The notes under the pieces were generated by a model that was not told the DNA's origin, did not search any database, and worked only from the letters and a program-made list of their open reading frames with translations. 48,682 bases of DNA, taken from NCBI GenBank assembly GCA_029100605.1, contig JAQXPK010000090.1, forward strand, positions 1 through 48,682, written 5' to 3'. The stretch is from Bacillota bacterium. GTDB lineage: Bacteria > Bacillota > Clostridia > Oscillospirales > Oscillospiraceae. The position numbers and the translations under genes are program-made. Shown piece by piece: positions 9,111 through 33,819 of this stretch (the first letter of the stretch is position 1; every line of letters starts with the position of its first letter).

Positions 9111-9113
9111 ATT

Positions 9114-16802: not shown

Positions 16803-16820
16803 GCCAGACGAAAGAACGCA

Positions 16821-17212: not shown

Positions 17213-17230
17213 TATACTTCACCTCTCTTT

Positions 17231-17244: not shown

Positions 17245-17285
17245 TCCAATTTTGTTTTTAATGTTTTATAAATCATATAAAACAG

Positions 17286-17413: not shown

Positions 17414-17435
17414 TGGTTATATAGAGAAAGCAATC

Positions 17436-17542: not shown

Positions 17543-17558
17543 ATTGGAGGAAATAGCA

Positions 17559-18077: not shown

Positions 18078-18102
18078 GGTACACTTTTGGCGTTTTAGTT
18101 AG

Positions 18103-18145
18103 GAAACAGGTGAAGGGGTTAATCTCCTCCACCTGTTTCTCTTTT
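18103..18145 (+). terminator. Terminator after the sigma-like gene
   Basis: GAAACAGGTG (18103-18112) pairs perfectly with CACCTGTTTC (18130-18139), followed by TCTTTT. Confidence 0.8.
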
Positions 18146-19161: not shown

Positions 19162-19261
19162 CTTGAATTTTGTGATATACAAGGACTTTTCAAAATTTTT
19201 TTCGATACAGAGAAACAGACAAGTTCTTGAATCATAGAGTAAGTATCATGCGCAGCCGGGA

Positions 19262-19444
19262 GTGATGTTTGTGAACGGTACTGCTTCGTATCAGGCAGAA
19301 ACACATACGGCCTATATCGGATCAAAGGCAATTACAGTCATTGGATTGACGCCTGTTTTCTCCGACGAACTGGAAAAGCGAAAAAACAAAGAAAAGATCG
19401 AATACGGACTATTCAGCATTTTTGAGAAGTATTCGCACATTTGA
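19262..19444 (+). CDS. Small ICE protein of unknown function
   Basis: 60 residues from GTG 19262 (an ATG follows as codon 2). The pattern SYQAETHTAYIGSKAITVIG then LTPVFSDELEKRKNKEKIEY, with a helical end, resembles small proteins that I have seen just upstream of serine recombinases in conjugative transposons. I cannot name a function. The ribosome-binding site is weak (CCGGGAG). It ends 65 nt before the recombinase, with a degenerate stem-loop between them. Confidence 0.55.
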   Translation: MMFVNGTASYQAETHTAYIGSKAITVIGLTPVFSDELEKRKNKEKIEYGLFSIFEKYSHI

Positions 19445-19509
19445 GCATATGGAGCTGCCACAGTATAATCATGCTGTTGGTGGCTCTTTCTACATAGAGG
19501 GGAGAGCTT

Positions 19510-21027: not shown

Positions 21028-21044
21028 TTTTTTATACTTCATCT

Positions 21045-21053
21045 TGATTGCAG
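21045..21053. other. Right junction of the ICE with cotJC
   Basis: CotJC similarity on the minus strand reads QRFGEAL and then departs to QSR-stop between 21053 and 21045. This is the inferred attachment region. The core dinucleotide cannot be fixed without the left end. Confidence 0.6.
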
Positions 21054-21388
21054 TGCTTCACCAAACCGCTGGAAATGCACGACCTCCCGCTCCCGGAGGA
21101 ATTTGATGACATCGTTCACATCCGGGTCGTCGGAAAGCCGCAGAATGTTGTCATAGGTCACCCGGGCCTTCTGCTCCGCAGCAAGATCTTCCACCAGATC
21201 CGCCATAGGATCGCCCTTGACCTCCATGGAAGCGGCACTCCAGGGGAATCCAGAGGCAGCTGTGGGGTAGACACCGGCTGTGTGATCCACAAAATAGGGC
21301 GCGAAAGCGGAGTCCTTCATCTGGGAATCCTTCAGATTCCGGGTCAGCTGGTGAACAATCGCCCCAATCATCTCCAGGTGCCCCAGCT

Positions 21389-21398
21389 CTTCGGTTCC
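21389..21398. other. Left attachment-site candidate of the cotJC-splitting segment
   Basis: The plus strand reads CTCTTCGGTTCC (21387-21398); cotJC sequence lies to its left and element sequence to its right. The shared pattern with 33072-33081 is CTTCnGTnCC, GT at 21394-21395. Confidence 0.55.
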
Positions 21399-21434
21399 TG
21401 CTTCGTGTTCATTCTGCGGCGCGGCAAGAAATTC

Positions 21435-21603
21435 TTAAGGCAATACCGCATAATGGGGCAAGGAGATTCGGCAAGAGATTTTGACACAAGCGAAAGTATG
21501 AAAAACGGGGGAATACTGGATGTATTTCCCATTTTTCATACTGCACGATTGGGGCAAAAGATCTGCCGAAGCCCGCAGTCCCCATTGTGTGGTGTTGCCT
21601 TAA
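21435..21603. repeat. 169-bp palindromic miniature element, copy 1
   Basis: Begins TTAAGGCAATACCGCATAAT and ends with a near-inverse (GTGTTGCCTTAA), so TTAA is present at both outer edges. Inside, AGTATGAAAAA... and ...TTTTTCATACT pair around TGGAT, so nearly the whole unit can fold on itself. There is no ORF. It is 169 bp like copy 2 at 23944-24112 and highly similar to it. It behaves like a MITE, and could also act as a two-way terminator. Confidence 0.85.
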
Positions 21604-21615
21604 AAGAAATAACAG

Positions 21616-21644
21616 GTGACAAATCCGGGGAAATATGGTATATT
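21616..21644 (+). promoter_or_regulatory. Sigma-A-type promoter of the glf-remnant/glycosyltransferase unit
   Basis: GTGACA (21616-21621), 17 bp, TATATT (21639-21644), 33 bp before the first start codon. Confidence 0.6.
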
Positions 21645-21676
21645 CTCTGTGACAAACGAAGCGAAGGAGCTTTTTC

Positions 21677-21871
21677 ATGAAGCACAATTATCTGGTCGTG
21701 GGGGCGGGGTTGTTTGGCACCGCTTTCGCGAAATACCGCGCCCTGGCGGAAAAAGAGCCCAAAACCATCTTCGGCGGCAGGCTGGGGGAGTACCGCTACT
21801 GCGACATGGACGCGGTGCTGCTCCGGGCGCTGACCCTTGTCAAAGCGGAAATCGAAGGAGAAAGACAATGA
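21677..21871 (+). pseudogene. glf: UDP-galactopyranose mutase remnant with large in-frame deletion
   Basis: Sixty-four codons. The first 15 residues, MKHNYLVVGAGLFGTAFA, are the FAD-binding GxGxxG start of UDP-galactopyranose mutase. The rest, KYRALAEKEPKTIFGGRLGE followed by YRYCDMDAVLLRAL, is its extreme C-terminus. About 300 residues between them are gone, but the frame is kept. A complete enzyme (about 370 residues) converts UDP-galactopyranose to UDP-galactofuranose. This product cannot. The ribosome-binding site GAAGGAG and the ATGA overlap with the next gene are intact, so the short frame may now serve only to couple translation of the glycosyltransferase. Confidence 0.85.
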
Positions 21872-22878
21872 AACTTCTGACGGTAACTGTTCCCTGCTAC
21901 AATTCCCAGGATTATATGGAAAACTGTATTCAGAGCCTGCTGCCCGGTGGAGACCGGGTGGAAATCATCATCATTGACGACGGCTCCACGGATAACACCG
22001 GAAGAATCGCCGACTCCTACGCCGAGAAATTCCCCGACATCGTTCGGGTGATTCATCAGGAAAACGGCGGTCACGGTGAGGGCATCAACCAGGGCCTGAA
22101 GCACGCCACGGGCACCTACTTCAAGGTGGTGGACAGCGACGATACCCTGAGTCCCGACTTTCCCAAGCTGCTGGATACCTTGGAGGAATGCGAGCGCCAG
22201 GGCGGCGTGGATCTGGCGGTGACCAATTACTACTACGTCCATGCCGACGGCGACGGCGACCGTTCCATCGACTATTCTTCCGTCCTGCCGGAGAACCGGA
22301 TTTTCACCTGGGAGGAGACCAAGCCCTTCCGGATCTATCAGCTGCTCACCATTCATTCCTGTACCTTCCGCACCGAGGCCATGCGCCAGTGGGGAGAGGA
22401 GCTTCCCAAGCACGTCTTCTACGAGGACAACCTGATGATTTACAGAACCCTGCCCCACGTCCGGAAGCTTTACTATCTCAATTCCGACCTCTACCGCTAC
22501 TGGATCGGACGACCGGATCAGTCGGTGCAGTCCAGCATTCTGGCAAAGCGGTACAGCCACCAGATTCTGGTGACGGAAAAGTGCTTCACGACCTGTCACC
22601 TGGACGACATCGCCCAGCCTCGGCTGAAGCGGTACATGAAGCACGAACTGTTCATGATGTTTGGCATCGCGATTCTGGCAACCCGGCAGAACAAGTCCGC
22701 CGAGACCGACGCGGCGCTGGGGAAGATGTGGGAAACCTGCATGGCCTTTGACCCAAAGTGGGCCAAGTACTTCCGAAAGCACACTCCGCTGCTATTCATC
22801 AGCGTTCCCGGCAAGGCCGGGCGGAAGTTCGCCAGCGGCGTATACCACTTTGCCAACAGTGTGGTGCGATTCAATTGA
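21868..22878 (+). CDS. Family 2 glycosyltransferase
   Basis: 336 residues, overlapping the upstream stop by ATGA and preceded by GAAGGAG. GT-A fold signatures: VTVPCYNSQDYMENCIQSLL at the start, the nucleotide-binding IIIIDDGSTDNT, and VVDSDDTLSPDF, whose DSDD is the DxD metal-binding motif. EDNLMIYRTL is the usual catalytic-base region. It transfers a sugar from a nucleotide sugar to a cell-surface glycan or lipid; the acceptor is unknown. Association with a glf remnant suggests a former galactofuranose-containing polymer. No membrane helix is obvious, so it is probably a cytoplasmic or peripheral membrane enzyme. A terminator follows. Confidence 0.9.
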   Translation: MKLLTVTVPCYNSQDYMENCIQSLLPGGDRVEIIIIDDGSTDNTGRIADSYAEKFPDIVRVIHQENGGHGEGINQGLKHATGTYFKVVDSDDTLSPDFPKLLDTLEECERQGGVDLAVTNYYYVHADGDGDRSIDYSSVLPENRIFTWEETKPFRIYQLLTIHSCTFRTEAMRQWGEELPKHVFYEDNLMIYRTLPHVRKLYYLNSDLYRYWIGRPDQSVQSSILAKRYSHQILVTEKCFTTCHLDDIAQPRLKRYMKHELFMMFGIAILATRQNKSAETDAALGKMWETCMAFDPKWAKYFRKHTPLLFISVPGKAGRKFASGVYHFANSVVRFN

Positions 22879-22884
22879 CAGCGA

Positions 22885-22914
22885 ACCGGACAGCCATTGG
22901 GCTGTCCGGTTTTT
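22885..22914 (+). terminator. Terminator after the glycosyltransferase
   Basis: ACCGGACAGCC (22885-22895) and GGCTGTCCGGT (22900-22910), ATTG loop, then TTTT. Confidence 0.9.
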
Positions 22915-22990
22915 GTCAGAATTTGGCGTATTCCAAAATGATTACAAATGTGTTACAATCACCGGGCATATATGCAGACTTTTTCGTGAG

Positions 22991-23947
22991 GTGATTGTCA
23001 TTCGACGGATCGTAATCTGTGTTTTGATGCTTTTTCTCTGTCTGAGCCTGCCGGTTCAGGCAGATGCCGCCGGAATGGATTCCCGGGCGGGCGCCGTTAC
23101 CACAACCGGCGGAAATCTGAATGTGCGCAGCAGCCCATCCACGGACGCGGCCAAGGTGGCTTCCCTGAAAAAGGGCAGCTACATCACCCTGATCTCCAAG
23201 TCCGGCAGCTGGTGGAGGGTGGAATACGCCAAGGGAAAGTTCGGCTATTGCCATGCTGACTACATTACCGTGGTAGAAGGGGCACCGGCGACGGTGGCTG
23301 TGAACTCCGGTTCCCTGAACGTCCGCAGCGGGGCGGGAACAACCCATTCAAAAGTCGCGTCTCTTTCCAAGGGGGAGGCGGTGATTCGGCTGTCCACGGC
23401 GAACGGTTGGAGCCGGGTGCTGTATCACGGCACGAAAACCGGCTACGTCAGCGCCCAGTACATGTCCGGGTATTACGCCCCGGTGTCGCTGAATGTCCTG
23501 AATTTCAAGCAGACAGATGAACGCTGGGCAAACACGCTGATCGGCGATTCCGGCAAACCCTTCTCTCAGATCGGCTGCGCCACCACCGCTGTGGCGATGA
23601 TGGAGTCCTGCCGCACCGGCAGAACCATCTACCCGGACGCCATGGCAAAGCAGCTCCGATACACCCCCTCGGGAAGCCTGTACTGGCCCAGCCATTACAC
23701 GGCGGTGACCGACGGAAGCGGGTATCTTGCCGGGATTTACGACAAGCTGAAGCAGGGAAAGCCGGTGCTTTTTGGCGCGCGGAATGCTTCCGGTACCCAG
23801 CATTGGGTGGTCGTCACCGGCTACACCGGGGGCAGCAGCCTGACGGCTTCCGGGTTTACCATCCACGACCCCGGAACCCATTCCCGGACGAATTTGCAGC
23901 AGCTGCTGAACGGGTATCCGACCTTTTATAAATACTTCCATTATTAA
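22991..23947 (+). CDS. Exported protein with two SH3b domains and a C39-like peptidase domain
   Basis: 318 residues from GTG 22991, chosen because it gives a complete signal peptide (VIVIRRIVICVLMLFLCLSL, then VQADA-A); ATG 23027 would cut it. Two bacterial SH3 domains follow: GGNLNVRSSPSTDAAKVASL and SGSLNVRSGAGTTHSKVASL mark their starts near residues 35 and 105. The C-terminal half is a papain-like C39_2 domain: Cys in IGCATTAVAMM, His in QHWVVVTGY and Asp in IHDPG make a complete catalytic set. It probably binds the cell wall and cleaves a peptide or wall crosslink outside the cell. Its stop codon TAA is formed by the first bases of a miniature element, so the original C-terminus may have been slightly different. 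Confidence 0.85.
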   Translation: MIVIRRIVICVLMLFLCLSLPVQADAAGMDSRAGAVTTTGGNLNVRSSPSTDAAKVASLKKGSYITLISKSGSWWRVEYAKGKFGYCHADYITVVEGAPATVAVNSGSLNVRSGAGTTHSKVASLSKGEAVIRLSTANGWSRVLYHGTKTGYVSAQYMSGYYAPVSLNVLNFKQTDERWANTLIGDSGKPFSQIGCATTAVAMMESCRTGRTIYPDAMAKQLRYTPSGSLYWPSHYTAVTDGSGYLAGIYDKLKQGKPVLFGARNASGTQHWVVVTGYTGGSSLTASGFTIHDPGTHSRTNLQQLLNGYPTFYKYFHY

Positions 23948-24112
23948 GGCAATACCGCATAATGGGTCAAGGAGATTCGGCGAGAGATTTTGACCCAAGC
24001 GAAAGTAGGAAAAATGCGGGAATACTGGATGTATTTCCCATTTTTTACACTGCGCGATTGGGGAAAAAGATCTGTCGAAGCCCCCAGTTCCCATTGTGCG
24101 GTGTTTCCTTAA
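23944..24112. repeat. 169-bp palindromic miniature element, copy 2
   Basis: TTAAGGCAATACCGCATAAT at the left, GTGTTTCCTTAA at the right. Same length, orientation and internal palindrome as copy 1 with scattered substitutions. Its left TTAA supplies the stop codon of the C39 gene. Confidence 0.85.
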
Positions 24113-24203
24113 ATCTCGGGCAAGAATCGACTTGAGCAGGGATCGTAGGGGACGACATCCTTGACGCTCCCTGCCGTAAGGCTGCTTTCGCCGGAATCAT
24201 ACA

Positions 24204-24228
24204 GGGGTTGGCGAACATCGCCAACCCC
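24204..24228. terminator. Hairpin downstream of asnA
   Basis: GGGGTTGGCGA (24204-24214) pairs exactly with TCGCCAACCCC (24218-24228). It lies 20 bp beyond the asnA stop. No good T-run is present, so termination is likely but not certain. Confidence 0.6.
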
Positions 24229-24248
24229 ATTCTTGCGCTCTATGCGGG

Positions 24249-25259
24249 TTACAGCAGTGGGATTCCGGCCTTTGCGCAGGCTTCTACCGTTGCTTCATCC
24301 CAGACGCTGGACTGCACCTCGCCAATGTGGGCGCTGCCCAGCATCAGCATGGCAAGCCGGCTTTGACCGATGCCGCCGCCGATGGTCAGGGGCAGCTCGT
24401 TGTTCAGGAGCATCTTGTGGAAGGGCAGTTCCCGGCGGTCGTCGCAGCCGGCTAAGGTCAGCTGGCGATCCAGAGATTCCGCGTCCACCCGGATGCCCAT
24501 GGAGGAGACCTCCAGCGCCCGGTTCAGGGTCTCATCCCAGAAGAAAATGTCGCAGTTCAGGTTCCAGTCATCGTAGTCGGGAGCCCGTCCGTCGTGGGGC
24601 TTGCCGGAGCGGAGCGCGCCGCCGATTTGCATGACGCAGGCGGTTTTATGCTCCCGGACGTAGGCGTTTTCCCGCTCCGAACCGGTTTTCAGATCCGGGT
24701 ATTTGTCCTCCAGCTCCTGGGCGGTGATGAAGCTGACCTCCCGGCTCAGTTCGGTGCGCAGCTGGGGGTAACGGACGTGGAGCCTGTCGTTGGTATTGCA
24801 AACCGCGCCTACAATGGCCTTGACGATGAGCTTCAGAAAGTCCAGATTCCGGTTTTCCCGGGTAATGATCTTCTCCCAGTCCCACTGATCCACGTAGACG
24901 GAGTGGATATTGTCCAGCGTTTCGTCCCGGCGGATGGCGTTCATGTCCGTATACAGGCCGTTGCCCACAGTGAAGTGGTATCGCTTGAGCGCCAGACGCT
25001 TCCATTTGGCCAGAGAGTGCACCACCTGAGCATCCTTGCCCACGGCGGGAATATCAAAGGACACGGGGCGCTCATAGCCGTTGAGGTTGTCGTTAAGGCC
25101 GGAGCTTTCGGTGACAAACAGGGGAGCGGAGACCCGCTTCAGGTTCAGCGCCTTGGAAAATTCCTCCTGAAACGTCTCCTTGATAAAGGCAATGGCTCGC
25201 TGGGTGTCGTAGGCGTCCAGCGCCGGCTGGTAGTGCTCGGGTATGTAAATCTGGTTCAT
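24249..25259 (-). CDS. asnA: Aspartate-ammonia ligase (asparagine synthetase A)
   Basis: 336 residues, the usual length of AsnA. The start at 25259 (MNQIYIPEHYQ) follows GAAAGGG and matches the family N-terminus. It makes asparagine from aspartate, ammonia and ATP in the cytoplasm. Class-II aminoacyl-tRNA-synthetase-like fold signatures: RVSAPLFVTESSGLNDNLNG, PVSFDIPAVGKDAQVVHSLA, GLYTDMNAIRRDE, SVYVDQWDWEK and the C-terminal ATP site LTIGGGIGQSRLAMLML. All expected core motifs are present. It stands alone between terminators. No T-box was found upstream. Confidence 0.97.
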   Translation of the reverse strand: MNQIYIPEHYQPALDAYDTQRAIAFIKETFQEEFSKALNLKRVSAPLFVTESSGLNDNLNGYERPVSFDIPAVGKDAQVVHSLAKWKRLALKRYHFTVGNGLYTDMNAIRRDETLDNIHSVYVDQWDWEKIITRENRNLDFLKLIVKAIVGAVCNTNDRLHVRYPQLRTELSREVSFITAQELEDKYPDLKTGSERENAYVREHKTACVMQIGGALRSGKPHDGRAPDYDDWNLNCDIFFWDETLNRALEVSSMGIRVDAESLDRQLTLAGCDDRRELPFHKMLLNNELPLTIGGGIGQSRLAMLMLGSAHIGEVQSSVWDEATVEACAKAGIPLL

Positions 25260-25340
25260 AAGAAAACCCTTTCCGATGAAATATGGTTCCATTGTATTCC
25301 ATTTTCCGGAAAAATCAAGTGCGTTTCGCAGATTGAACAC

Positions 25341-25363
25341 AAAACCCGCCGGAATCCGGCGGG
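25341..25363 (-). terminator. Terminator after the hydrolase operon
   Basis: CCCGCCGG (25345-25352), AAT, CCGGCGGG (25356-25363). On the minus strand it is followed by TTTTGTGTT. Confidence 0.85.
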
Positions 25364-25445
25364 CGCAGGGAAGCATCAACAGAGCATTCTCCGTTGGAAA
25401 GGTGGCAGCCCAAGGGGCTGACGGATGCCCCTGATCAGTCAAAAA

Positions 25446-26405
25446 TCAAAGATTTTTGCCAGCTTCTCCGGAGGGGAAGCCTTTTGGCGTCAGCGCCTTC
25501 TCCACAAACTCCGTGACGATTTTCCGATACCTCGGCGTATCCACCAGATAGCTGAAGCCGTGGTCGGCGTTGGGGAAGGTGCAGCGGGTGACGAGGGCGG
25601 GGTTCTCTGACACAATGTCGCTCATTTCGCATGGAACAAAGCTGTCATTTTCCCCATGGATAATGAGAATCGGCACCCTGGTGCGTCTAACTGCCCGGGC
25701 GGCGTCGGTTTCGTCAATGTCAAAGCCGCCGTAGACCTTGGCGCCCACCTTGACAAAGGGCCAGGCCAGCCAGTCAGGCAAATGCATATCTCTTGCCACC
25801 TTGCGGATGATGGCCTTGGGGGAGGAATAGGGGCAGTCGGCGATGATGCCTTTGACGTTTTTCGGCAGGTTCAGCTCCGACGCCATCAGCACCGTAGCCG
25901 CGCCCATGGAGACGCCATAGAGCAGAATATCCGCGTTTTCCCAGCGCTTTGCCGCGTAATTCGCCCAGCTGACCACGTCCCACCGCTCCTGGATGCCAAA
26001 GGCAATGGTACGGCCTTCGCTTTTTCCGTGAGCACGCTGGTCTACCAAAAGTAGATTGTGTCCCATGGAAAAGCTCAGCTCGCTGCCCCCGGCAAAATCC
26101 GTCAGGGCGCTGCTGCGGTAGCCATGAAAGCCGATGTCCAGGGGCGCGCCCTCCCTGACCTGGTAGTACCGCCCGTACAGCTTCAGGCCGTCGTAGGATT
26201 CAATAGTCACGTCCTCGCAGACCCGGGCGGAGAGTTGGCAATAGACCCGGTTGATCTCTTTGCGGTAGGGGTCATACTTGTGGCTTGAAAAGGCGGAAAT
26301 CTTGTCCCGGCCTTTTTTCGGGGAGAAGAACGCTACCCGGTAGACATAATATCCGCCGCTCAGCAGCAGTAGAATCAGGAAGCAAAGGATCAGAATGAGT
26401 ACCAT
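25446..26405 (-). CDS. Membrane-anchored alpha/beta hydrolase
   Basis: 319 residues. The start at 26405 lies 1 nt after the stop of the HAD gene, so the two are coupled. Residues 1-22 (MVLILILCFLILLLLSGGYY) form a membrane anchor. The hydrolase fold shows IGFHGYRSS (oxyanion strand), LLVDQRAHGKSEG, the nucleophile elbow YGVSMGAAT (Ser in GxSxG), the acid in IIHGENDSFVP and the His in NADHGFSYL. The triad is complete, and the protein resembles Bacillus YkfA/YqkD-like hydrolases. Substrate is unknown. The enzyme may face either side of the membrane. Confidence 0.9.
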   Translation of the reverse strand: MVLILILCFLILLLLSGGYYVYRVAFFSPKKGRDKISAFSSHKYDPYRKEINRVYCQLSARVCEDVTIESYDGLKLYGRYYQVREGAPLDIGFHGYRSSALTDFAGGSELSFSMGHNLLLVDQRAHGKSEGRTIAFGIQERWDVVSWANYAAKRWENADILLYGVSMGAATVLMASELNLPKNVKGIIADCPYSSPKAIIRKVARDMHLPDWLAWPFVKVGAKVYGGFDIDETDAARAVRRTRVPILIIHGENDSFVPCEMSDIVSENPALVTRCTFPNADHGFSYLVDTPRYRKIVTEFVEKALTPKGFPSGEAGKNL

Positions 26406-26406
26406 A

Positions 26407-27111
26407 TCAAAGACTCCGAATGTAGGACAGAAGTTCTGGGAAGCTGCCATGGGGATACTGAGAAATGTCGCCACCGTCCCGGTTGATGAGGCAGTCTGTG
26501 AGCAGAAACACCCGCATTCCCAGAGTTTTGGCAATCATGTCCTCACCCACATCATTGCCCACCATGAGACATTCCCCGGCGTTCAGATGGAGTTTACCCA
26601 GAATTTCCCGGTAATAGTCAGGGTTGGGCTTACAGAAGGAGGAATTGTCATAGGTGGTGATGAAAGCGAAATCCTCCGGTTCCAGTCCTGCCCACCGGAT
26701 GCGGCTTTGAGTGGCCACCGGCGGAAAAAGGGGATTGGTGGCAAGCGCGGTTGTATAGCCCATATCATGGAGCGTCCGGACGGTTTCGGCCGCGGCAGGA
26801 TTGAAGCCGCAGCTGTGTTGGGCTTCCTGGAATTCCGTCTCGTAGAATTCCTCAAGCAGGGGCAGATCCGACATGGCCTTCTCACCGAAGATGCCAGTGA
26901 ACACCTGCCAGAAAACGGCTTCGTTGGACTGCCGTCCGTCGTTTTTCACCATGGCGCCGGTGCCTTTCCACACCGCTTTCACCAGCAGCTGGGGATCGTA
27001 GCCGTGGGGCACCATCTTTTGGGCAAGACGACCCAGGTAGTCCTTGACGAACACCTCCTGATCCATGGGCAGCAGAGTGCCGTCCAGGTCGAATAAAATT
27101 GTGGTTAGCAT
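26407..27111 (-). CDS. HAD-superfamily hydrolase
   Basis: 234 residues from ATG 27111, preferred over ATG 27123 because AGGTG lies 4 nt before it. Motif I FDLDGTLLPMD holds the nucleophile Asp and the acid Asp; motif II is in TTALATNPLF (Thr/Asn); motif III Lys in NSSFCKPNPDYY; motif IV Asp in MVGNDVGEDM. A helical cap lies between motifs I and II. It probably dephosphorylates a small phosphorylated metabolite; the substrate is not predictable. It forms an operon with the hydrolase downstream. Confidence 0.92.
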   Translation of the reverse strand: MLTTILFDLDGTLLPMDQEVFVKDYLGRLAQKMVPHGYDPQLLVKAVWKGTGAMVKNDGRQSNEAVFWQVFTGIFGEKAMSDLPLLEEFYETEFQEAQHSCGFNPAAAETVRTLHDMGYTTALATNPLFPPVATQSRIRWAGLEPEDFAFITTYDNSSFCKPNPDYYREILGKLHLNAGECLMVGNDVGEDMIAKTLGMRVFLLTDCLINRDGGDISQYPHGSFPELLSYIRSL

Positions 27112-27127
27112 ATTGCACCTCAATCGA

Positions 27128-27161
27128 AACCCGCCGTCCTTTGGATACGGAACGGCGGGTT
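27128..27161 (-). terminator. Stem-loop between the nudix and HAD genes
   Basis: AACCCGCCGT (27128-27137) pairs with AACGGCGGGTT (27151-27161). The minus-strand tail TTTCGATTG is only weakly T-rich. Confidence 0.65.
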
Positions 27162-27168
27162 GTGTGGT

Positions 27169-27627
27169 TCACCGTTTTTTCTGTTCTACCCACCGGGTCA
27201 GGGGAATGCGGTTGGGCGGGGAGATGGGTTGCGGCAGGCTGTCCGTCGGGAAGAAGCCCAGCTGCTCCACTTCGCTGTCCTGCTTTCGGAGCGTCCCATC
27301 GTATTGCCGGCATAAAAAGACAATATCCACATTGGATACCTCGTCGCCGTTAGGATACACATAGTGCATTCCCTCTCCGGAGAATACCCCGAAGAGCGTC
27401 AATTCCCGGGCGATCAGGCCGGTTTCCTCGTACAGCTCCCGCTTTGCCGCGTCCTCCACGGCCTCGTCCAGCTCCACGCTGCCGCCGGCATAGCCCCAGC
27501 AGTGGTTGTCCGCCCGCTTTTCCAGCAGAATTTCTCCTCGGCTGTTTTCCACAATGACGCTGGCTCCCACCTGCAGCAGGGGTCGGTGCCCCACGAGCTT
27601 CCGCAGCTCCAGAATATAACCCGACAT
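27169..27627 (-). CDS. Nudix hydrolase
   Basis: 152 residues. The start at 27627 follows GAGGTAAC and lies 4 nt after the metA stop, so it is co-transcribed with metA. The nudix box is exact: GSVELDEAVEDAAKRELYEE followed by TGL satisfies Gx5Ex7REUxEExGU at about residues 54-76. Metal ligands are the glutamates of RELYEE. It hydrolyses a nucleoside diphosphate linked to another moiety; WGYAGGS and the following EVSNVDIVFLCRQYDG suggest an MutT/ADP-sugar type but do not fix the substrate. Confidence 0.93.
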   Translation of the reverse strand: MSGYILELRKLVGHRPLLQVGASVIVENSRGEILLEKRADNHCWGYAGGSVELDEAVEDAAKRELYEETGLIARELTLFGVFSGEGMHYVYPNGDEVSNVDIVFLCRQYDGTLRKQDSEVEQLGFFPTDSLPQPISPPNRIPLTRWVEQKKR

Positions 27628-27631
27628 ACCG

Positions 27632-28567
27632 TTACCTCGGGGTGGATTCCCGACCAACCGCCATAATGTCATAGGGCGTGGTCTGATAGACGAAGTAGTT
27701 CAGCCAGTTGCTGAACAGCAGATGGGCGTGTCCCCGCCACCGGACGATGGGCTTCCGGGTATCGTCGTCGTTGGGATAGTAGTTGGCGGGGACGTGAATC
27801 GGCAGTCCAAGAGCCTTGTCCCGGAGGTACTCTTTTTCCAGGGTATCCGCGTCGTATTCCGCGTGACCGGTGACGAAGATCTGGCGGCCTTCCTTGTTCA
27901 TGACGGCGTAAACTCCGGCGTCAGGGGAGGAGGCCAGGATTTTCAGGCCCGGCACCGCCTCAATGTCAGCGCGCGCCACCGTGGTGTGGCGGGAATGGGG
28001 AATCCAGAATTCATCGTCAAAGCCCCGGAGAAGAATGGCTCGTTTGTAGTCCGCATGGTGGGGATAGACACCGAAGAGCTTCTCGGGAAGCGGCCTCTTC
28101 TGAATACCATAGTGATAATATAGCCCCGCCTGAGCGCCCCAGCAGATGTGGAAGGTGGAGTGAACGTGGGTTTTGCTCCACTCCATGATCTGGCACAGCT
28201 CGTCCCAGTAGTCCACCTCTTCAAAGGGCATCTGCTCCACCGGCGCGCCGGTGATTACCATGCCGTCGAATTTCCGATCCTTTAACTCGTCAAAGGTCTT
28301 GTAGAAATTCAGCAGATGCTCCTCCGGGGTATTCTTGGAGCGGTGGGAGGAAACCATCATCAGCTCCAGGCGCACCTGCAGCGGAGTGTTGCCCAACAGA
28401 CGGCTGAGCTGGGTTTCCGTGACGATTTTTGTGGGCATGAGATTCAGCAGAACGATTTCCAGAGGGCGGATATGCTGGGTCTCCGCCCGGGTCTGGTTCA
28501 TGACAAAGATGTTTTCCTGCTGCAGAATGCCCGATGCCGGCAGGTCGTTGGGTATCTGAATGGGCAT
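27632..28567 (-). CDS. metA: Homoserine O-acetyltransferase (MetA family)
   Basis: 311 residues, complete. It activates homoserine for methionine synthesis in the cytoplasm. Cys142 ([10 protein letters not shown]) is the acyl nucleophile; His235 and Glu237 (VTGHAEYD) complete the active site. Residue 111 is Glu in [16 protein letters not shown]. In MetA proteins Glu here is known to favour acetyl-CoA, and Gly succinyl-CoA, so this is predicted to be an acetyltransferase. That fits its partner MetY, which uses O-acetylhomoserine. GGAGGGA precedes the start. It lies 163 bp downstream of metY on the same strand. Confidence 0.95.
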
Positions 28568-28730
28568 ATGCGTCCCTCCTGACGGTGATAGTAGCGTGGA
28601 AACGGAAAATGCAGAATGATGGTATTTCCTTCGGAAGCATTGTCCGATCTTCCGAGAAGCGGACGCCTTTCTTCAGTATCTTGCATTCAGCATTCCGCAT
28701 TTCACAAGAGCGCAGTGTTTCGCAGCACCC
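28568..28730 (-). other. metY-metA intergenic region with short repeats
   Basis: It contains GAAATGCGGAATGCTGAATG and, further on, an inverted echo (CATTCTGCATTTTCCG). I looked for a SAM riboswitch and saw none. The repeated AATGC units look like a small dispersed repeat; the region holds no gene. Confidence 0.4.
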
Positions 28731-30017
28731 TTACACCTCGTCCAGCGCTTGGGCAATGTCCGCGATGAGATCCTGGGCGTTTTCCAGGCCGCAGCTCAGG
28801 CGGATGAGATCCGCGCCCACGCCGGCGGCATCCAGCTCCGCGTCGGTCATCTGCCGATGGGTGGAGGAGGCGGGGTGCAGGCAGCAGGTGTGGGAATCGG
28901 CGACATGGGTCTCGATAGAGCCCAGCTTCAGGTGCTTCATGAAGGTCTCTGCCGCTTTCCGTCCGCCGTAAAGGCCGAAGGAAATGACGCCGCAGGTGCC
29001 GTTCGGCATGTATTTTTGGGCCAAATCATAGTATTTGTCACCCTTCAGCCCCGCGAACTTGACCCACTTGACCTTCTCGTGACTCTGCAGGAACTCGGCA
29101 ACGGCCTGGGCGTTGGCGCAGTGCTGCTTCATCCGGAAGGGCAGGCTTTCCAAGCCCAGATTCAGCAGATACGCGCTCTGGGGGGACTGGATGCAGCCAA
29201 AGTCCCGCATAAGCTGGGCGGTACACTTGGTGATAAACGCCCCAGCAAGACCGAACCGCTCGGTATAAGTCACGCCGTGGTAGCTGTCGTCGGGGGTGCA
29301 CAGGCCGGGGAATTTGTCCGGATACGCCGTCCAGTCAAAGCTGCCGCTGTCCACGATGGCGCCGCCCACAGCGGAAGCGTGACCGTCCATGTACTTGGTT
29401 GTGGAGTGGGTGACGATGTCCGCGCCCCACTGGAAGGGACGGCAGTTGATGGGGGTGGCGAAGGTATTGTCCACGATCAGGGGCACGCCGTGGGCATGGG
29501 CGGCTCTGGCGAACTTCTCAATGTCCAGAACCGTCAGGGCGGGATTGGCGATGGTCTCACCGAACACGGCCTTGGTATTGGGGCGGAAAGCGGCGTTCAG
29601 CTCCTCTTCCGTGCAGTCGGGGTCGATGAACGTGGTTTCCAAGCCCATTTTCTTCATGGTCACGGAGAAGAGGTTAAAGCTGCCGCCGTAGATGGCGGAG
29701 CTGGCAATGATATGGTCGCCGCAGCTTGCGATGTTGAATACCGCCAGAAAATTCGCGGCCTGACCGGAGCCGGTGAGCATGGCGGCAGTTCCTCCCTCCA
29801 GAGCGCAGATCTTGGCGGCGACGGCGTCACAGGTGGGGTTAGCCAGACGGGAATAGAAGTAGCCGTCGGCCTCCAGATCAAAGAGCTTGCCCATGTCCTC
29901 GGAGGTATCGTACTTGAAGGTGGTGCTCTGAACAATGGGAATCTGCCGGGGCTCGCCGTTTTTGGGGGAGTAACCGGCCTGAATGCACAGGGTTTCAGGA
30001 TGCAGTTTGGTTTCCAT
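28731..30017 (-). CDS. metY: O-acetylhomoserine sulfhydrylase (aminocarboxypropyltransferase)
   Basis: 428 residues, the usual length. A PLP-dependent Cys/Met-metabolism enzyme making homocysteine from O-acetylhomoserine and sulfide. The N-terminus ETLCIQAGYSPKNGEPRQIP is typical. The cofactor lysine is in HSTTKYMDGHASAVGG; the phosphate-binding part is LTGSGQAANFLAV; VDNTFATPINCRPF gives the PLP-ring Asp. The C-terminus RLSCGLENAQDLIADIAQAL is standard. GAGGTGAATTCC precedes ATG 30017, and a strong promoter lies at 30050-30078. With metA downstream it forms a direct-sulfhydrylation route to homocysteine. Confidence 0.97.
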   Translation of the reverse strand: METKLHPETLCIQAGYSPKNGEPRQIPIVQSTTFKYDTSEDMGKLFDLEADGYFYSRLANPTCDAVAAKICALEGGTAAMLTGSGQAANFLAVFNIASCGDHIIASSAIYGGSFNLFSVTMKKMGLETTFIDPDCTEEELNAAFRPNTKAVFGETIANPALTVLDIEKFARAAHAHGVPLIVDNTFATPINCRPFQWGADIVTHSTTKYMDGHASAVGGAIVDSGSFDWTAYPDKFPGLCTPDDSYHGVTYTERFGLAGAFITKCTAQLMRDFGCIQSPQSAYLLNLGLESLPFRMKQHCANAQAVAEFLQSHEKVKWVKFAGLKGDKYYDLAQKYMPNGTCGVISFGLYGGRKAAETFMKHLKLGSIETHVADSHTCCLHPASSTHRQMTDAELDAAGVGADLIRLSCGLENAQDLIADIAQALDEV

Positions 30018-30049
30018 GGGAATTCACCTCATCGTTTGAATGATTCCTT

Positions 30050-30078
30050 ATTGTAAACGTTTGGCAGACATTTGTCAA
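30050..30078 (-). promoter_or_regulatory. Sigma-A promoter of metY
   Basis: On the minus strand TTGACA (30073-30078), 17 bp, TACAAT (30050-30055). Confidence 0.85.
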
Positions 30079-30087
30079 CGCCTGACG

Positions 30088-30116
30088 AAAAACGGTTGCC
30101 CGGAATGGGGCAACCG
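30088..30116 (-). terminator. Terminator-like hairpin upstream of the metY promoter
   Basis: CGGTTGCCC (30093-30101) pairs with GGGCAACCG (30108-30116); the minus strand continues with TTTTT. It would stop minus-strand transcription coming from the peptidase/tRNA side before metY. Confidence 0.7.
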
Positions 30117-30176
30117 CCGCAGCTTCTCCCCGGATTTATGCAGGGGGAACCTGACAAAAGAATGGGGGAAAGCTGT

Positions 30177-30734
30177 ATGAACAACCGGCAGAAACAGTGT
30201 TTGTTGGCATATTTGGGGTACTACCATGGGAATCCGGACGGAATCTGGGGCGAATTGTCCGTATCTGCGACCAGGGCGTTCCAGCGGGACTACGGACTGA
30301 CAGCTGACGGTATTTTCGGTACCGCCACGGAAAACCGGATCCGAGAGGTGATCGCGTCCGGCTCAGAAACGGTGTCCGCCGGAGGTGATTTCTGGGCCCG
30401 CATCCGGTATTGGCGGCGGGAAGAATTTCGCTGTCCCTGCGGGAAGTGCGGCGGATTTCCGGTGGAACCGGAGCAGACACTGGTGGAGCTGGCGGACGAT
30501 GTCCGCACCCACTTTGGTCGTCCCGGCCACGGTTCCAGCGGTGTCCGCTGTCCCCGCCACAACGCCGAAGTGGGCGGCGTGGCAAACAGCCGCCATCTAT
30601 CAGGCAAGGCTCTGGATTTCTGTATTGAGGGTGTCTCCGGCGAGCAGCTGCTGGCCTATGTGAAACAGGACAAAAGGACAAACTACGCCTATGTGATTTC
30701 CGGTGGGCCGTACGTGCACATGGACGTCCGGTAG
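30177..30734 (+). CDS. Peptidoglycan-binding D,D-peptidase-like protein (M15 type)
   Basis: 185 residues; start at 30177 follows GGGGGAAAG. Residues 5-60 are a peptidoglycan-binding domain (LLAYLGYYHGNPDGIWGELS and FQRDYGLTADGIFGTAT). The C-terminal part resembles M15 D-Ala-D-Ala carboxypeptidases: the zinc ligands are expected in SRHLSGKALDF (His and Asp) and the final YVHMDV (His). CPCGKCGG near residue 85 adds a small Cys cluster. No signal peptide is present in this frame, which is odd for a wall enzyme; phage endolysins share this layout, so it may act as a lysin or be exported another way. Confidence 0.82.
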   Translation: MNNRQKQCLLAYLGYYHGNPDGIWGELSVSATRAFQRDYGLTADGIFGTATENRIREVIASGSETVSAGGDFWARIRYWRREEFRCPCGKCGGFPVEPEQTLVELADDVRTHFGRPGHGSSGVRCPRHNAEVGGVANSRHLSGKALDFCIEGVSGEQLLAYVKQDKRTNYAYVISGGPYVHMDVR

Positions 30735-30803
30735 GCATTTCATCCAATGCGGGAAAAAGGCGCCGGACCGGGTACGAAAAGTACCGGAATCGGCGCCCAA
30801 ATA

Positions 30804-30892
30804 TGGCGGAGAGAGTGGGATTCGAACCCACGGTGGGTTGCCCCATCACCAGTTTTCAAGACTGGCTCCTTAAACCCCTCGGACATCTCTCC
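30804..30892 (-). tRNA. tRNA-Ser (anticodon TGA)
   Basis: Minus strand GGAGAGATGTCCGAG at the 5' end pairs with the 3' TCTCTCC; anticodon loop CTTGAAA flanked by CCAGT/ACTGG; long variable arm; T-arm GGTTCGAATCC; CCA encoded. 89 nt, a class II tRNA. Confidence 0.96.
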
Positions 30893-30903
30893 AAACAGCG
30901 TAG

Positions 30904-30932
30904 AGTATACCATTTCAGTGGGAAAAAGTCAA
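30904..30932 (-). promoter_or_regulatory. Promoter of tRNA-Ser(TGA)
   Basis: Minus strand TTGACT (30927-30932), 17 bp, TATACT (30904-30909), ending 11 bp before the tRNA. Confidence 0.8.
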
Positions 30933-30961
30933 GGCTTTTGCCGCCGGGACGAGAATTGTGC

Positions 30962-30990
30962 TTGACAAACGAAACAGCGTATGCTAGAAT
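30962..30990 (+). promoter_or_regulatory. Promoter of tRNA-Ser(GCT)
   Basis: TTGACA (30962-30967), 17 bp, TAGAAT (30985-30990). It diverges from the other tRNA-Ser promoter. Confidence 0.85.
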
Positions 30991-31026
30991 ACTTTGGCAA
31001 TCAAGTGAACATCTTTTCTTTGATTC

Positions 31027-31118
31027 GGAGTGATACCCAAGAGGCCGAAGGGGCTCCCCTGCTAAGGGAGTAGGCGTCTAAACAGCGCGCGAGGGTTCAA
31101 ATCCCTCTCACTCCGCCA
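31027..31118 (+). tRNA. tRNA-Ser (anticodon GCT)
   Basis: GGAGTGA at the 5' end pairs with TCACTCC; anticodon loop CTGCTAA between CTCCC and GGGAG; long variable arm; GGTTCAAATCC T-arm; CCA encoded. 92 nt. Confidence 0.96.
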
Positions 31119-31126
31119 GGTTGAAA

Positions 31127-31156
31127 CCGTCTGGAATTGTGTCCAGACGGTTTTTT
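31127..31156 (+). terminator. Terminator after tRNA-Ser(GCT)
   Basis: CCGTCTGGA (31127-31135), ATTGTG, TCCAGACGG (31142-31150), then TTTTTT. Confidence 0.93.
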
Positions 31157-31242
31157 CTGTTGGCAAAATGCGGTTTGCGCGCAGACCCCCGGCAGGGAAT
31201 GGAATCACCCCCACTTCCACGGCATATTGTGTGACAGTGGAG

Positions 31243-31431
31243 GTGATCAGACTGGAGAATCAGGCTGTATTTCTGGAAACGTCCGGAGAAATATCGGTTA
31301 CGAAGCAGAGCGCGCCTGAGTTTTGGATGCTGTACCAGCAGTCCGTTCTGCTGGCGCTAAAGCAACAGGGGGCTCTGGATGAGCAGCAGTATGCGCTCTG
31401 TATGGACACTTTGCGCGCTCAAAGGGAATAA
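31243..31431 (+). CDS. Small SHOCT-like protein next to the recombinase
   Basis: 62 residues if started at GTG 31243; the frame is open to 31168 but upstream codons look random. GTGGAGG lies directly at the start, so the true start may be a few codons further on. The end LALKQQGALDEQQYALCMDT resembles the short SHOCT motif, a helical oligomerisation unit. It ends 67 nt before the serine recombinase on the same strand. Small proteins next to serine integrases sometimes set recombination direction; that role here is only a guess. Confidence 0.6.
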   Translation: MIRLENQAVFLETSGEISVTKQSAPEFWMLYQQSVLLALKQQGALDEQQYALCMDTLRAQRE

Positions 31432-31498
31432 TCGATTCGTCAGAAGCGGCATTGCCTCCGGCAGCGCCGCTTTTGCTTAGCCGAATGGGGGAAAGAAA

Positions 31499-33127
31499 AT
31501 GAAAGTTGCCGCCTATTGCCGCGTTTCCACGGATCAGGAGGATCAGGCCAATTCCTTCGAGAGCCAGCGGCGGTATTTCCGTGAATACATTGAGCGTCAG
31601 CCGGATTGGGAGCTTGTGGAAATCTACGCGGACGAAGGAATCACCGGTACCAGCACGGAAAAACGAACCGCGTTCAACCGGATGCTCCGGGACGCCCGGC
31701 TTCACCGGTTTGATCTGATTGTGACCAAGGAAATCTCCCGGTTTGCCCGGAACACGCTGGACAGCATCCGCTATACCCGGGAACTCAAAAAAATGGGAAT
31801 CGGCGTTTTGTTTCTGAACGACGGGATGAACACCCTGCAAGAGAGTTCGGAGTTCATTCTTACAATTAAGGCCTCCCAGGCTCAGGAGGAAAGCCGCGCC
31901 ACCAGTTCCCGGGTCAAGTGGGGGCAGACCCGCCGGATGGAGCAGGGGGTGGTGTTTGGGCGGTCGCTGCTGGGTTACGATGTTAAGGACGGCAAACTGA
32001 CTGTCAATCCGGCAGGGGCGGAAATCGTCCGACTGATTTATCACAAGTATGTCCAGGAGCGAAAAGGCACCACCACCATCGCCCGGGAACTTCGGGAGGC
32101 AGGGTTCAAGACGCTCCGTGGTGGGACGGACTGGCGGGCAACGGTGATATTGAAGATTCTGTGCAATGAGAAATACTGCGGCGATCTGAAGCAAAAGAAA
32201 ACCTATACTCCCGATTACCTGACCCATCAGAAGAAATACAACCACGGGGAAGAACCCTTTGTGTACCTGCGGGATCACCACGAGCCGATCATCGACCGGG
32301 CGCTGTGGGAAGAGGCTCAGCGGGAAATCCGCCGAAGGGATCGGGATGGAAAACTGGCCTCCGGTCATGGAAACCGCTACCCCCTGTCCGGGAAAATCAA
32401 ATGCGCCGCCTGCGGTAAGAGCTTCGTTTCCCGTAGGCGTAAACGCAGAGATGGGACGGTCTACAGAACCTGGCGCTGCGGTACGGCAGTCGCCCAGGGA
32501 AAGCGCCGCGTAAACGCTGCCGGAATTGAATCGGGCTGCGAAGTGGGCTATCAGCTGCGGGACGAGGCGGGTATGGCAATGCTCCGGCAGGCAGTCGGTA
32601 TGCTGAGGATGGACAATGTGGCAATCGTCTCCAATCTCACCGGCTTGGTTTTGAGCGCCCTGCAAGCCTCTGAGGACAACCGGCAAAACTGTCTGGACAC
32701 ATGGGACAAGAAGCTGACAGCCCTCCGGGAAAAGAAGAAACGGGTACTGGACGCCTACTTTGAGAAAGAGATTACTTCCCAGGATATGCATCTGATGAAT
32801 GAGGAATACGACCGGGAAATCGACCGTTTGTCAGAACAAATCAAGCTGGCAGAAGGGGAGAGCCAACCGTCACCGTGGTCAGAAGGTGAAATCCGGGCCA
32901 AAATCTGCGGTATTGTATCCGGCAGGGAAGCCCCGGACGCATTCTACGGCAATCTGCTGGATCACATCACCGCTTACCCGGACAGGAAACTGGAACTTTG
33001 CCTGAAACAGCTGCCCCAAAGCTGGCTGTTCCGGCTGGAACGTCAGGGCGAAATCATGCTCCGGAACGACCCTTCTGTACCGATGTCGGTCAGCAACCCC
33101 TTCAGCTCGTCGAAGGGCATAGAGTAG
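31499..33127 (+). CDS. Large serine recombinase at the cotJC junction
   Basis: 542 residues behind GGGGGAAAG. The resolvase domain has the nucleophile Ser in YCRVSTDQEDQANSFESQ, the arginine block TKEISRFARNT and SQAQEESRATSSRVKWG. The recombinase domain shows GRSLLGYDVKDGKL. A zinc ribbon starts at KIKCAACGKSFVSRR (about residue 300), with its second Cys pair at RCG and GC. A coiled-coil at about 400-450 completes the large-integrase layout. Its last 16 codons (after about 33078) are read from the antisense of cotJC, ending SSSKGIE. The C-terminus is thus supplied by the host gene and would change on excision. Confidence 0.95.
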   Translation: MKVAAYCRVSTDQEDQANSFESQRRYFREYIERQPDWELVEIYADEGITGTSTEKRTAFNRMLRDARLHRFDLIVTKEISRFARNTLDSIRYTRELKKMGIGVLFLNDGMNTLQESSEFILTIKASQAQEESRATSSRVKWGQTRRMEQGVVFGRSLLGYDVKDGKLTVNPAGAEIVRLIYHKYVQERKGTTTIARELREAGFKTLRGGTDWRATVILKILCNEKYCGDLKQKKTYTPDYLTHQKKYNHGEEPFVYLRDHHEPIIDRALWEEAQREIRRRDRDGKLASGHGNRYPLSGKIKCAACGKSFVSRRRKRRDGTVYRTWRCGTAVAQGKRRVNAAGIESGCEVGYQLRDEAGMAMLRQAVGMLRMDNVAIVSNLTGLVLSALQASEDNRQNCLDTWDKKLTALREKKKRVLDAYFEKEITSQDMHLMNEEYDREIDRLSEQIKLAEGESQPSPWSEGEIRAKICGIVSGREAPDAFYGNLLDHITAYPDRKLELCLKQLPQSWLFRLERQGEIMLRNDPSVPMSVSNPFSSSKGIE

Positions 33128-33264
33128 CGCTGGGACAGATAGCGCAGAGACGCGCCCAATTCTCCGTCGGGGCCGCCGTACTGGGAGATGACAATGGCAG
33201 CCAGCCGGGGGTTTGGCTTTTCGATCTTGACGGGGTATTGCAGCTTCTTATCATAGACAAACAT
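33043..33264 (-). pseudogene. cotJC: 5' fragment of cotJC (spore coat / manganese catalase)
   Basis: Starts at ATG 33264 behind AAGGAGG, 2 nt after the cotJA-cotJB stop. Residues 1-63 match CotJC: FVYDKKLQYPVKIEKPNPRL, SQYGGPDGELGASLRYLSQR and KGLLTDIGTE. The Glu of DGEL is an expected metal ligand. After GTE (33073) the frame runs 9 codons into the recombinase region (GSFRSMISP) and stops. The missing continuation, ELGHLEMIG, is found at 21363-21389 in the same orientation. As it stands the fragment cannot form a catalase. Joined to the distant fragment it would give DIGTEELGHLE without frame change. Confidence 0.92.
33072..33081. other. Right attachment-site candidate of the cotJC-splitting segment
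   Basis: The plus strand reads CCTTCTGTACCG (33071-33082); cotJC lies to its right. It matches 21389-21398 as CTTCnGTnCC, with GT at 33077-33078 the best core candidate. Confidence 0.55.
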
Positions 33265-33266: not shown

Positions 33267-33713
33267 TTACGCCTCCTTGTTCTTCGTAAATTCCCAGGGC
33301 CAGGGATCATCCAGCCACTGATAGTCCTCCGAGGTCTGGGGCGCAGCGTGGGTCAGCGGGCCGAACCGCTTTTGGTATTCTTCCCGACCCTTCTGAAGCA
33401 GCTGCTGGTAATTGCGGTACAGTTCCAGCGCCTCCCGGTCATCCCGATGGGTGTCCAGATAGAGCGCCAGCTCCTGCACAGCAAAGCCTAGCGCCTGGAG
33501 CTGGGTCAGCGGCGTCACCGGCAATTCATGCAGGTTCACCATGCCCATGAAAGGCAGATCCAGCCCCGGAAACAGCGTGCCCCGTACCAGGCCCTTCTGT
33601 GCCTCGTATTTGGGTGGGTTTTCCAACTGAAAGGGAACGTAGGGATTTGCCAGCGGCGCCATGGCAGGCAGCCGGCCTTCCCGTCCGTTTTCCGCCATTT
33701 TTTGGTTCTCCAA
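33267..33713 (-). CDS. cotJA-cotJB: CotJA-CotJB fusion, spore coat proteins in one polypeptide
   Basis: 148 residues from TTG 33713, 8 nt after AAGGAGG. Residues about 20-57 are CotJA-like (ANPYVPFQLENPPKYEAQKG then LVRGTLFPGLDLPFMG). Residues about 68-145 are CotJB-like (LTQLQALGFAVQELALYLDT, REALELYRNYQQLLQKGREE, YQWLDDPWPWEF). In other spore formers these are two separate small genes cotJA and cotJB in front of cotJC. Here the frame is continuous through a short linker (MVNLHELPVTP). Both act in outer spore coat assembly and are needed with CotJC. The gene is first in the operon with the cotJC fragment. Confidence 0.87.
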   Translation of the reverse strand: MENQKMAENGREGRLPAMAPLANPYVPFQLENPPKYEAQKGLVRGTLFPGLDLPFMGMVNLHELPVTPLTQLQALGFAVQELALYLDTHRDDREALELYRNYQQLLQKGREEYQKRFGPLTHAAPQTSEDYQWLDDPWPWEFTKNKEA

Positions 33714-33748: not shown

Positions 33749-33756
33749 ATTCTATG
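33749..33756 (-). promoter_or_regulatory. Possible sigma-E/sigma-K type -10 element of the cotJ operon
   Basis: Minus strand CATAGAAT, close to the CATACAnT/CATAnnnTA class of mother-cell promoters, 36 bp before the TTG start. A matching -35 is weak. Mother-cell control is expected for cotJ genes from other species. Confidence 0.35.
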
Positions 33757-33819
33757 CATAATAAATGAAATGGTTCACAGGGCTTTGCCGGGCGCATAGA
33801 CTGAATTGAGGTGTTGTCC

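Follow-up and report, generated by a model that had tools for sequence, protein, structure and literature searches.

Can a spore coat gene that lies in two pieces on the chromosome, with a site-specific recombinase between them, still be made whole? The locus that raises this question is the manganese catalase gene cotJC on contig JAQXPK010000090.1 of a Bacillota bacterium of the order Oscillospirales (contig C90, bases 1-48682, the whole 48,682-nucleotide stretch analyzed here and called the window below). The contig belongs to a metagenome-assembled genome (MAG) of 2.01 Mb in 143 contigs, 84% complete. Here, we report that cotJC is broken at recurrent positions in many genomes of the order and that it is probably a split gene, the interruptions of which are removed as DNA in the sporulating mother cell, like skin or gin.

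In the window, the minus strand carries an open reading frame (ORF) for a fused CotJA/CotJB protein (33267..33713; Pfam CotJA [PF11007] and CotJB [PF12652], both above their cut-offs), followed by the 5' part of cotJC (33073..33264, residues 1 to 64), which ends in LLTDIGTE at the attachment site attL (GG at 33081-33080). The second part (21039..21398, minus strand) begins at 21398 with GTEELGHLEM and runs to FQRFGEALQ, where the gene is broken again at about 21048. Pfam Mn_catalase profile positions 1-65 were matched by the 5' part (E = 2.2e-21) and positions 62-192 by the second part (E = 1.1e-29), so that both features of the CotJC class, the profile match and cotJA-cotJB upstream, are present and the interrupted gene is a sporulation gene of cotJ, which we take to be a mother-cell operon. 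The minus-strand junction sequences are GACATCGGTACAGAAG (33087-33072) and GGAACCGAAGAG (21398-21387); read on the plus strand, both hold CTTCnGTnCC, as a preliminary description of this DNA had noted. Joining the flanks in silico at GG gave one open CotJC from DIGTEELGH through GEALQ, then SR-stop; sequence, Pfam matches and joined frame thus bear out the earlier observation of two collinear minus-strand parts that rejoin in frame as DIGTEELGH. A Mn_catalase profile search of the MAG (up to E = 10) returned these two matches only, and the intact second copy that the preliminary description had asked about was not found in the 84% of the genome that is represented. The ranking of nearest relatives was similar for both parts (Spearman 0.81, 24 loci); since they share much the same nearest relatives, they look like one gene and not like two paralogues.

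Broken cotJC genes are frequent in the order. Mn-catalase matches were found in 80 of 99 genomes searched, many in pieces, and in 342 of 395 genomes of a larger draw, the two draws together comprising 456 distinct genomes. Pieces were listed for 122 genomes (61 + 61) picked by eye for a best E-value weaker than roughly 1e-43 (G167, G198 and G229, near 1e-43, were excluded; G331, where an intact copy is also present, was added), a selection that under-counts split copies standing beside an intact one. In a hand-made table of these pieces and of those from the 99 genomes searched first, broken cotJC was scored in 151 of the 456 genomes, of which 31 are represented by a single piece, for example at a contig end in G038, G053, G268 and G308, where the break may be the assembly end; the safer count, also made by hand from this table, is the 59 genomes in which one contig bears two or more pieces. 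The census omits rows resembling other Mn-catalase paralogues or intact copies, and all of G168; in G015, the second piece was entered from position 60 and not from the listed 30, GTEE being the true start. Breaks fell at site 1 (the DIGTEE codon) in 82 genomes, at site 2 (between AA and EQKAR) in 62 and at site 0 (between QYGG and xxGE) in 35; breaks at site 3 (after FGEAL) were seen in the window and in L098, L121, L140, L153 and L287. Three pieces occur in 16 genomes and four in two (G416 and G243). Aligned to solved Mn catalases, sites 0-2 lie on ligand-type motifs, presumably those that carry the metal ligands, and site 3 lies a few residues past the last of them. Five genomes were listed with a break near residue 50, in part an overshoot of the alignment at site 0; the only such break checked, in G060 (C7/C16; L050, L293), is near residue 49, with a recombinase 20 nt away that is ~54% identical to LSR B of the window (see below). 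Many genomes are broken at this very codon, so that the split is, on this comparison of sequences, more than chance.

Neighboring pieces on one contig were collinear in order and orientation in 67 of 71 cases. The other four are G442 and G216, each with one piece inverted (G442:C1 and G216:C3), where rejoining would require inversion and not excision; G382, where the order is swapped; and G157, where the pieces are ~675 kb apart, so that rejoining would divide the chromosome into two large circles. G157:C1 is a one-contig genome, in which both pieces (198620 and 873266; L283 and L284) are on one strand.

Genes for large serine recombinases (LSRs) lie at the breaks. LSR A of the window (31499..33127, plus strand) has Resolvase, Recombinase and zinc-ribbon (Zn_ribbon_recom) domains by Pfam and, by alignment, a YCRVS-type catalytic motif; the ORF terminates at attL, ~50 nt inside cotJC, which places a site-specific recombinase beside the att site. 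The preliminary description had seen one serine recombinase, at one junction; it is there, but a second, LSR B (19510..21027, plus strand; Pfam), abuts the second break, after GEALQ. A scan of 84,980 genomes with an alignment of six site-1 recombinases returned 417 relatives. Among the best 80 of the 417, 73 had a site-1-broken cotJC piece within the fetched flanks (the 80 include L073 and L078, the source genomes of two of the six queries); the seven without one are L089, L090, L106, L123, L130, L132 and L139, four of them on contigs of <8 kb. Genera among these relatives include Pseudoflavonifractor, Flavonifractor, Agathobaculum, Butyricicoccus and Anaeromassilibacillus, besides many MAGs. 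On a tree of 112 recombinases (45 unlabeled ones omitted, duplicates merged, L284 labeled S0b though its break is at site 1), all 18 site-0 recombinases formed one clade, as did all 18 site-2 recombinases and 65 of the 69 site-1 recombinases, and the site labels changed 5 times against a shuffled mean of 40.2 (minimum, 35). LSR B falls in one clade with L287 and L153, both of them next to the codon that LSR B abuts. Judged from this tree, each cotJC site seems largely to be served by its own LSR clade. Within viral contigs, 6 of 16 relatives of the site-2 recombinase adjoin a cotJC piece, and against phage records that recombinase gave 779 matches, all at <60% identity. In L080, L068 and L072, a tandem pair of recombinase genes of the same site family lies within one element, perhaps through repeated insertion at the same att site.

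Eighteen site-1 elements, including that of the window, are complete (3.5-11.7 kb), and the only genes widely shared among them are the recombinase, present in all 18, and a small ORF, present in 17 (L152 alone lacks it). The small ORF of the window (31168..31431, plus strand), directly upstream of LSR A, is a candidate directionality factor; no Pfam or NCBIfam match gives the family a name. It stands immediately before the recombinase in 14 elements; in L110, L111 and L113 it is at the attR end, and cargo separates the two. Other cargo is varied and by eye chromosomal (DNA polymerase IV, RNase Z, RecQ, MATE and dehydrogenases), with a tRNA-Pro inside the site-1 elements of L115 and L135; at the other extreme, the 2.4-kb interval of L280 is essentially the recombinase alone.

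The att sites suggest where the strands would be exchanged. On the site-1 attL profile, the attL element arm of the window (33052..33075, minus strand) had the top score, unique among 97,318 window positions on both strands; the weak attR element arm (21399..21418, minus strand) is palindromic with it at the expected register, 0 (7/12, a level met by 1.5% of window 20-mers). In the commonest site-1 sub-family, attL reads GAYATnGGnACnGARGGGTC and attR reads TTTTGACCCCnnnnnnGGnACnGARGA, and other loci differ outside the core. The arms are mutual reverse complements with their axis on GG, shift 0 being best in 13 of 17 complete elements and tied in L127; L087, L114 and L117 do not fit this symmetry. 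Because the arms are palindromic around GG, the crossover dinucleotide is probably the GG of the glycine codon, and the GT/AC joining of the preliminary description was dropped after the symmetry test, the rejoined protein being the same either way. In the window, attL and attR share the core and permit in-frame rejoining of cotJC, with the attR arm weak. Counting LSR A (33073-33127 in the window), 27 site-1 recombinase ORFs extend at least 36 nt into cotJC, so excision would alter the recombinase C-terminus; this is possibly a built-in one-way switch.

The separated parts of cotJC appear to be maintained. None of 24 extracted second parts contained a stop, although a frameshifted part might escape the regular expression used. 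In the six closest split pairs ranked by silent divergence (four independent groups; the 113-residue part of L133 omitted), the ratio of nonsynonymous to synonymous divergence (dN/dS) was 0.144 (L110-L113), 0 (L120-L135), 0.012 (L036-L094), 0.024 (L110-L111), 0.007 (L111-L113) and 0.033 (L098-L112); farther pairs spread widely, with values such as 0.028 (L115-L120) and 0.353 (L098-L131). A 3' part that has no promoter and is kept at low dN/dS would have to be rejoined and used at some time; on these sequences, the 3' parts are evidently under purifying selection and cotJC is still used. In the close pairs tested (L036-L094 not among them), silent divergence (pS) was 0.26-0.72 for the recombinase and 0.10-0.53 for cotJC. 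L110, L111 and L113 have two cargo genes in common in the same order, and L115 and L135 have three; shared cargo with more diverged recombinases is as expected under co-inheritance.

Upstream sequences hold a recurrent box that resembles mother-cell promoters. The cotJ operon of the window is preceded by a promoter (33749..33775, minus strand; AACC, 15 nt, CATAGAAT) that we take to be sigma-K-like by its consensus. Of 97 non-redundant loci, 85 have CATANNNT no more than 140 nt upstream of cotJA, against a shuffled mean of 10.8 (maximum, 16); an ACC element precedes the box, a combination that we again assume to be sigma-K-like. At site-1 recombinases, 34 of 58 non-redundant loci have the same box at a distance of 235-340 nt upstream, where shuffled sequences gave 4.3 on average and 10 at most, and at site-2 recombinases it was found in 8 of 16 (shuffled mean, 1.8; maximum, 5); the reverse-strand control at site-1 recombinases gave 4 of 62, and recombinases from elsewhere gave 0 of 6. 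A CATAnnnT box upstream is thus a tendency common to site-1 LSR genes and cotJ operons, and in the window CATATTGT (31223..31230, plus strand) was found by sequence scan upstream of the small ORF and LSR A. Since the recombinase box has CAAA instead of ACC, our guess is that it is read by an earlier factor, such as sigma-E. SpoIVA was found in 91 of the 99 genomes, including this MAG (G000).

We therefore consider it likely that cotJC is a split gene restored in the mother cell. LSR A would have inserted its element into the conserved DIGTEE codons, at GG, and cotJC would stay broken in the vegetative line. On sporulation, the mother cell would produce both the recombinase and a directionality factor encoded with it, presumably by the upstream small ORF; attL would be joined to attR at GG, the intervening DNA would be lost with the doomed mother-cell chromosome, and an intact cotJC would be ready for late transcription. 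In the window, a second, integrative and conjugative element (ICE)-like element with LSR B at the end of the gene would also need removal. Because the loss is confined to a dying cell, the interval can hold ordinary genes and tRNAs with the germ line unharmed. The timing, the restriction to the mother cell, the role of the small ORF and the working of the window's own copy are what we infer. With somewhat less confidence, we favor a wider picture, in which this order's cotJC would be a bacterial gene interrupted by DNA introns: as many as three self-excising cassettes per gene, each at its own active-site motif and with its own recombinase clade, would all be removed in the mother cell, and such introns could shrink to little more than the recombinase (2.4 kb) or grow with ordinary chromosome, in one single-contig genome to a rearrangement with pieces ~675 kb apart, as they would be cut only in a dying cell.

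Several results weigh against this account. The preliminary description had suggested a developmentally excised element, and the comparative evidence (73 of 80 LSR relatives, purifying selection, SpoIVA and the promoter box) supports that suggestion in part, but no excision product was seen: attP or an excised circle was found in 0 of 400 family genomes with up to 3 mismatches (the pattern fits the commonest site-1 sub-family only) and 0 times in viral contigs, and no genome in the excised state was seen beside an inserted one. A candidate-type small ORF is absent from L280 and L152. The box statistics ignore kinship, their control outside cotJC comprises six recombinases only, and the single-box count holds no site-0 recombinases, which the anchoring motif does not fit; a two-box scoring for sigma-E and sigma-K showed a small rise at sites 1 and 2 and none at site 0. 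SpoIVA had no match in the split genome G083, which is 86% complete. On the tree, the node of the large site-1 clade has a support of only 0.39, the other four site-1 recombinases form a second clade, and two of the five site-3 recombinases lie elsewhere. Among pairs with pS <0.6, median dN/dS was higher for split than for intact genes (0.144 versus 0.084), which we attribute to the broader span that the split set covers and which makes some mild relaxation possible; L098 and L112 have only the recombinase in common and no cargo, so separate insertion is possible there. In the window, cotJC is indeed disrupted, but the second break, the housekeeping genes in the interval and the attR arm, with a poor profile score equalled by 1238 of 97,326 positions, speak against the simple form of the earlier suggestion. 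Intact relatives have ~20 further residues after GEALQ, which removal of the 11.7 kb alone would leave unrestored; this C-terminal tail was searched for in the MAG and not found, so a complete cotJC cannot be shown for this organism.

The lack of an excision product in 400 genomes and in viral contigs, together with the raised split median, would suit an account in which cotJC is a favored landing site of selfish recombinase elements and the occupied gene is dead and never rejoined. LSRs use conserved coding-sequence sites as attB (available text of PMC10083194), and the ICE-like element has entered the same window gene. We nonetheless think this account unlikely: in five of the six closest split pairs, dN/dS of the promoterless 3' parts stays at 0-0.033 even as the recombinases diverge, the 24 parts are free of stops, the pieces of thrice-interrupted genes still match the family, and one 2.4-kb interval is nearly recombinase alone. 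Split enzymes exist in general, and the two parts might likewise be translated separately and come together as a two-chain CotJC; with the break beside codons that we take to encode metal ligands, second parts entered in frame from element sequence and breaks that differ by species, this is very improbable. Hardly credible at all is an origin of the parts from two cotJC paralogues alike at GTE, a caution raised in the preliminary description; GTE is conserved in the family, but the parts are complementary, their nearest relatives are much alike, the two are the only matches in the MAG and the split recurs in relatives, and we rejected it.

A doubt of another kind concerns the second junction of the window. 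The interval holds ordinary chromosomal genes (21856..30734; glycosyltransferase, SH3/C39-like protein, asnA, hydrolase, HAD, Nudix, metA, metY and M15-type peptidase, named by eye from the ORFs) and two tRNA-Ser genes (TGA and GCT; 30804..31118, ARAGORN), and a 174-nt repeat resembling a miniature inverted-repeat transposable element (MITE) lies at 21431..21604, 33 nt from the attR core, with further copies at 23940-24113 (2.5 kb off) and, in part, at 34570-34622. It is possible, though we hold it the weaker case, that this junction is secondary, a rearrangement or an assembly join at the repeat, and that the true interval is not 11.7 kb. The attR arm is weak and the MAG is in 143 contigs; moreover, in G002 the relatives of metY and tRNA-Ser are ~95 kb from cotJC, a result that also tells against excision as proposed here; the interval content would then have come by rearrangement, or the contig would be misjoined at the 21431-21604 repeat. 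On the other side, other complete site-1 elements contain ordinary-looking chromosomal genes (two of them a tRNA), the window parts keep the collinear arrangement found in 67 of 71 same-contig pairs, and the attL and attR arms form a palindrome at the register expected. Native gene order downstream of cotJC varies among the relatives examined, so the route by which the housekeeping genes arrived cannot be reconstructed. The exact extent of the 11.7-kb circle put forward in the preliminary description is uncertain, given the housekeeping genes and tRNAs inside and the weak attR arm.

Developmental excision as such has precedents. According to the available text of PMC5595907 and PMC5025042, skin interrupts sigK in Bacillus subtilis and Clostridioides difficile, and sporulation control acts on the recombinase in B. 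subtilis or on the recombination directionality factor (RDF) in C. difficile; across known elements, it likewise lies on the recombinase in some and on the RDF in others (PMC5595907, in part). The cotJC elements resemble skin, as there described, in being serine recombinase elements in a mother-cell sporulation gene that would be rejoined by excision; they differ in that the target is a coat catalase gene and not a sigma factor, several LSR clades and four sites are involved, no phage genes were noticed in the compact site-1 elements, and their excision is a prediction. Another is gin in gerE of Bacillus cereus ATCC10987, given in the accessible part of PMC5595907 as a non-phage intervening element with serine recombinases, an accessory factor (GirX) and recombinase expression in sporulation; a non-phage element with a serine recombinase is what cotJC has too, but gin is one 28.6-kb element in one strain, whereas the cotJC elements occur in many lineages, with intervals as short as 2.4 kb, and one gene can hold as many as three of them. 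SP-beta in spsM, vfbin in spoVFB and yin in yabG are further excised elements of sporulation genes in the available text of PMC4191935 and PMC10747680, and, unlike the cotJC elements, are prophages or prophage-like. In C. difficile R20291, the prophage phi027 is adjacent to CDR20291_1465, a CotJC homologue (PMC11222575, in part), again a self-excising mobile element beside a CotJC-homologous gene; in the text available, it is a functional phage, the gene is called adjacent and not said to be interrupted, and other CotJC copies are present.

Outside sporulation, the fdxN element is excised by the large serine recombinase XisF during heterocyst differentiation. XisF is among the nearest NCBIfam models for LSR A and LSR B, which score 110.6 and 134.9 bits, respectively, where the equivalog (NF041201) has its cut-off at 375, and so are not members. 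We found no paper describing an element within cotJC in the literature searched, mostly outside subscription journals, the nearest being the available part of PMC11222575; the term cotJ has no match in PMC5595907 or PMC10747680, cotJC elements do not appear in the accessible text of PMC4028888 and PMC10083194, and PMC10294663 has no term match. Sporulation intervening elements as a kind (skin, SP-beta/spsM, vfbin, gin and yin) are therefore already known; new here are cotJC as the target, the breadth of occurrence, the four sites and the largely dedicated recombinases that serve them, multiple interruptions per gene and non-phage cassettes with ordinary genes. The published sporulation intervening elements that we found are few; most derive from phages, and they come from a small number of Bacillus and Clostridium species. 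If our reading is true, programmed DNA excision would be widespread in a large gut-bacterial order, and a single coat gene would be targeted repeatedly at several sites; the loci would offer a natural experiment on terminal-cell parasites becoming fixtures, together with a set of recombinases paired to their att sites. Coat genes that look "broken" in gut MAGs, otherwise scorable as loss of function, would also have a simple explanation.

The ICE-like element at site 3 (1..21040) comprises ParA/ParB-like, pilin-like and sortase genes, a large DNA-methylase-like ORF, sigma factors, PemK and LSR B, from ORFs with several names given by eye; PemK and a sigma factor were matched by Pfam and the sortase matched class C, and the far (left) end is beyond the contig. 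Genes similar to the two tRNA-Ser genes of the interval lie on contig C61 of the same MAG. The MITE-like repeat has AGGCAA-type inverted ends and several copies in the window. Upstream of the glycosyltransferase, a short ORF (21677-21871) resembles, by eye, a UDP-galactopyranose mutase that has lost its middle section. Many more LSR genes, at ~32-45% identity to LSR A, occur elsewhere in genomes of the genus.

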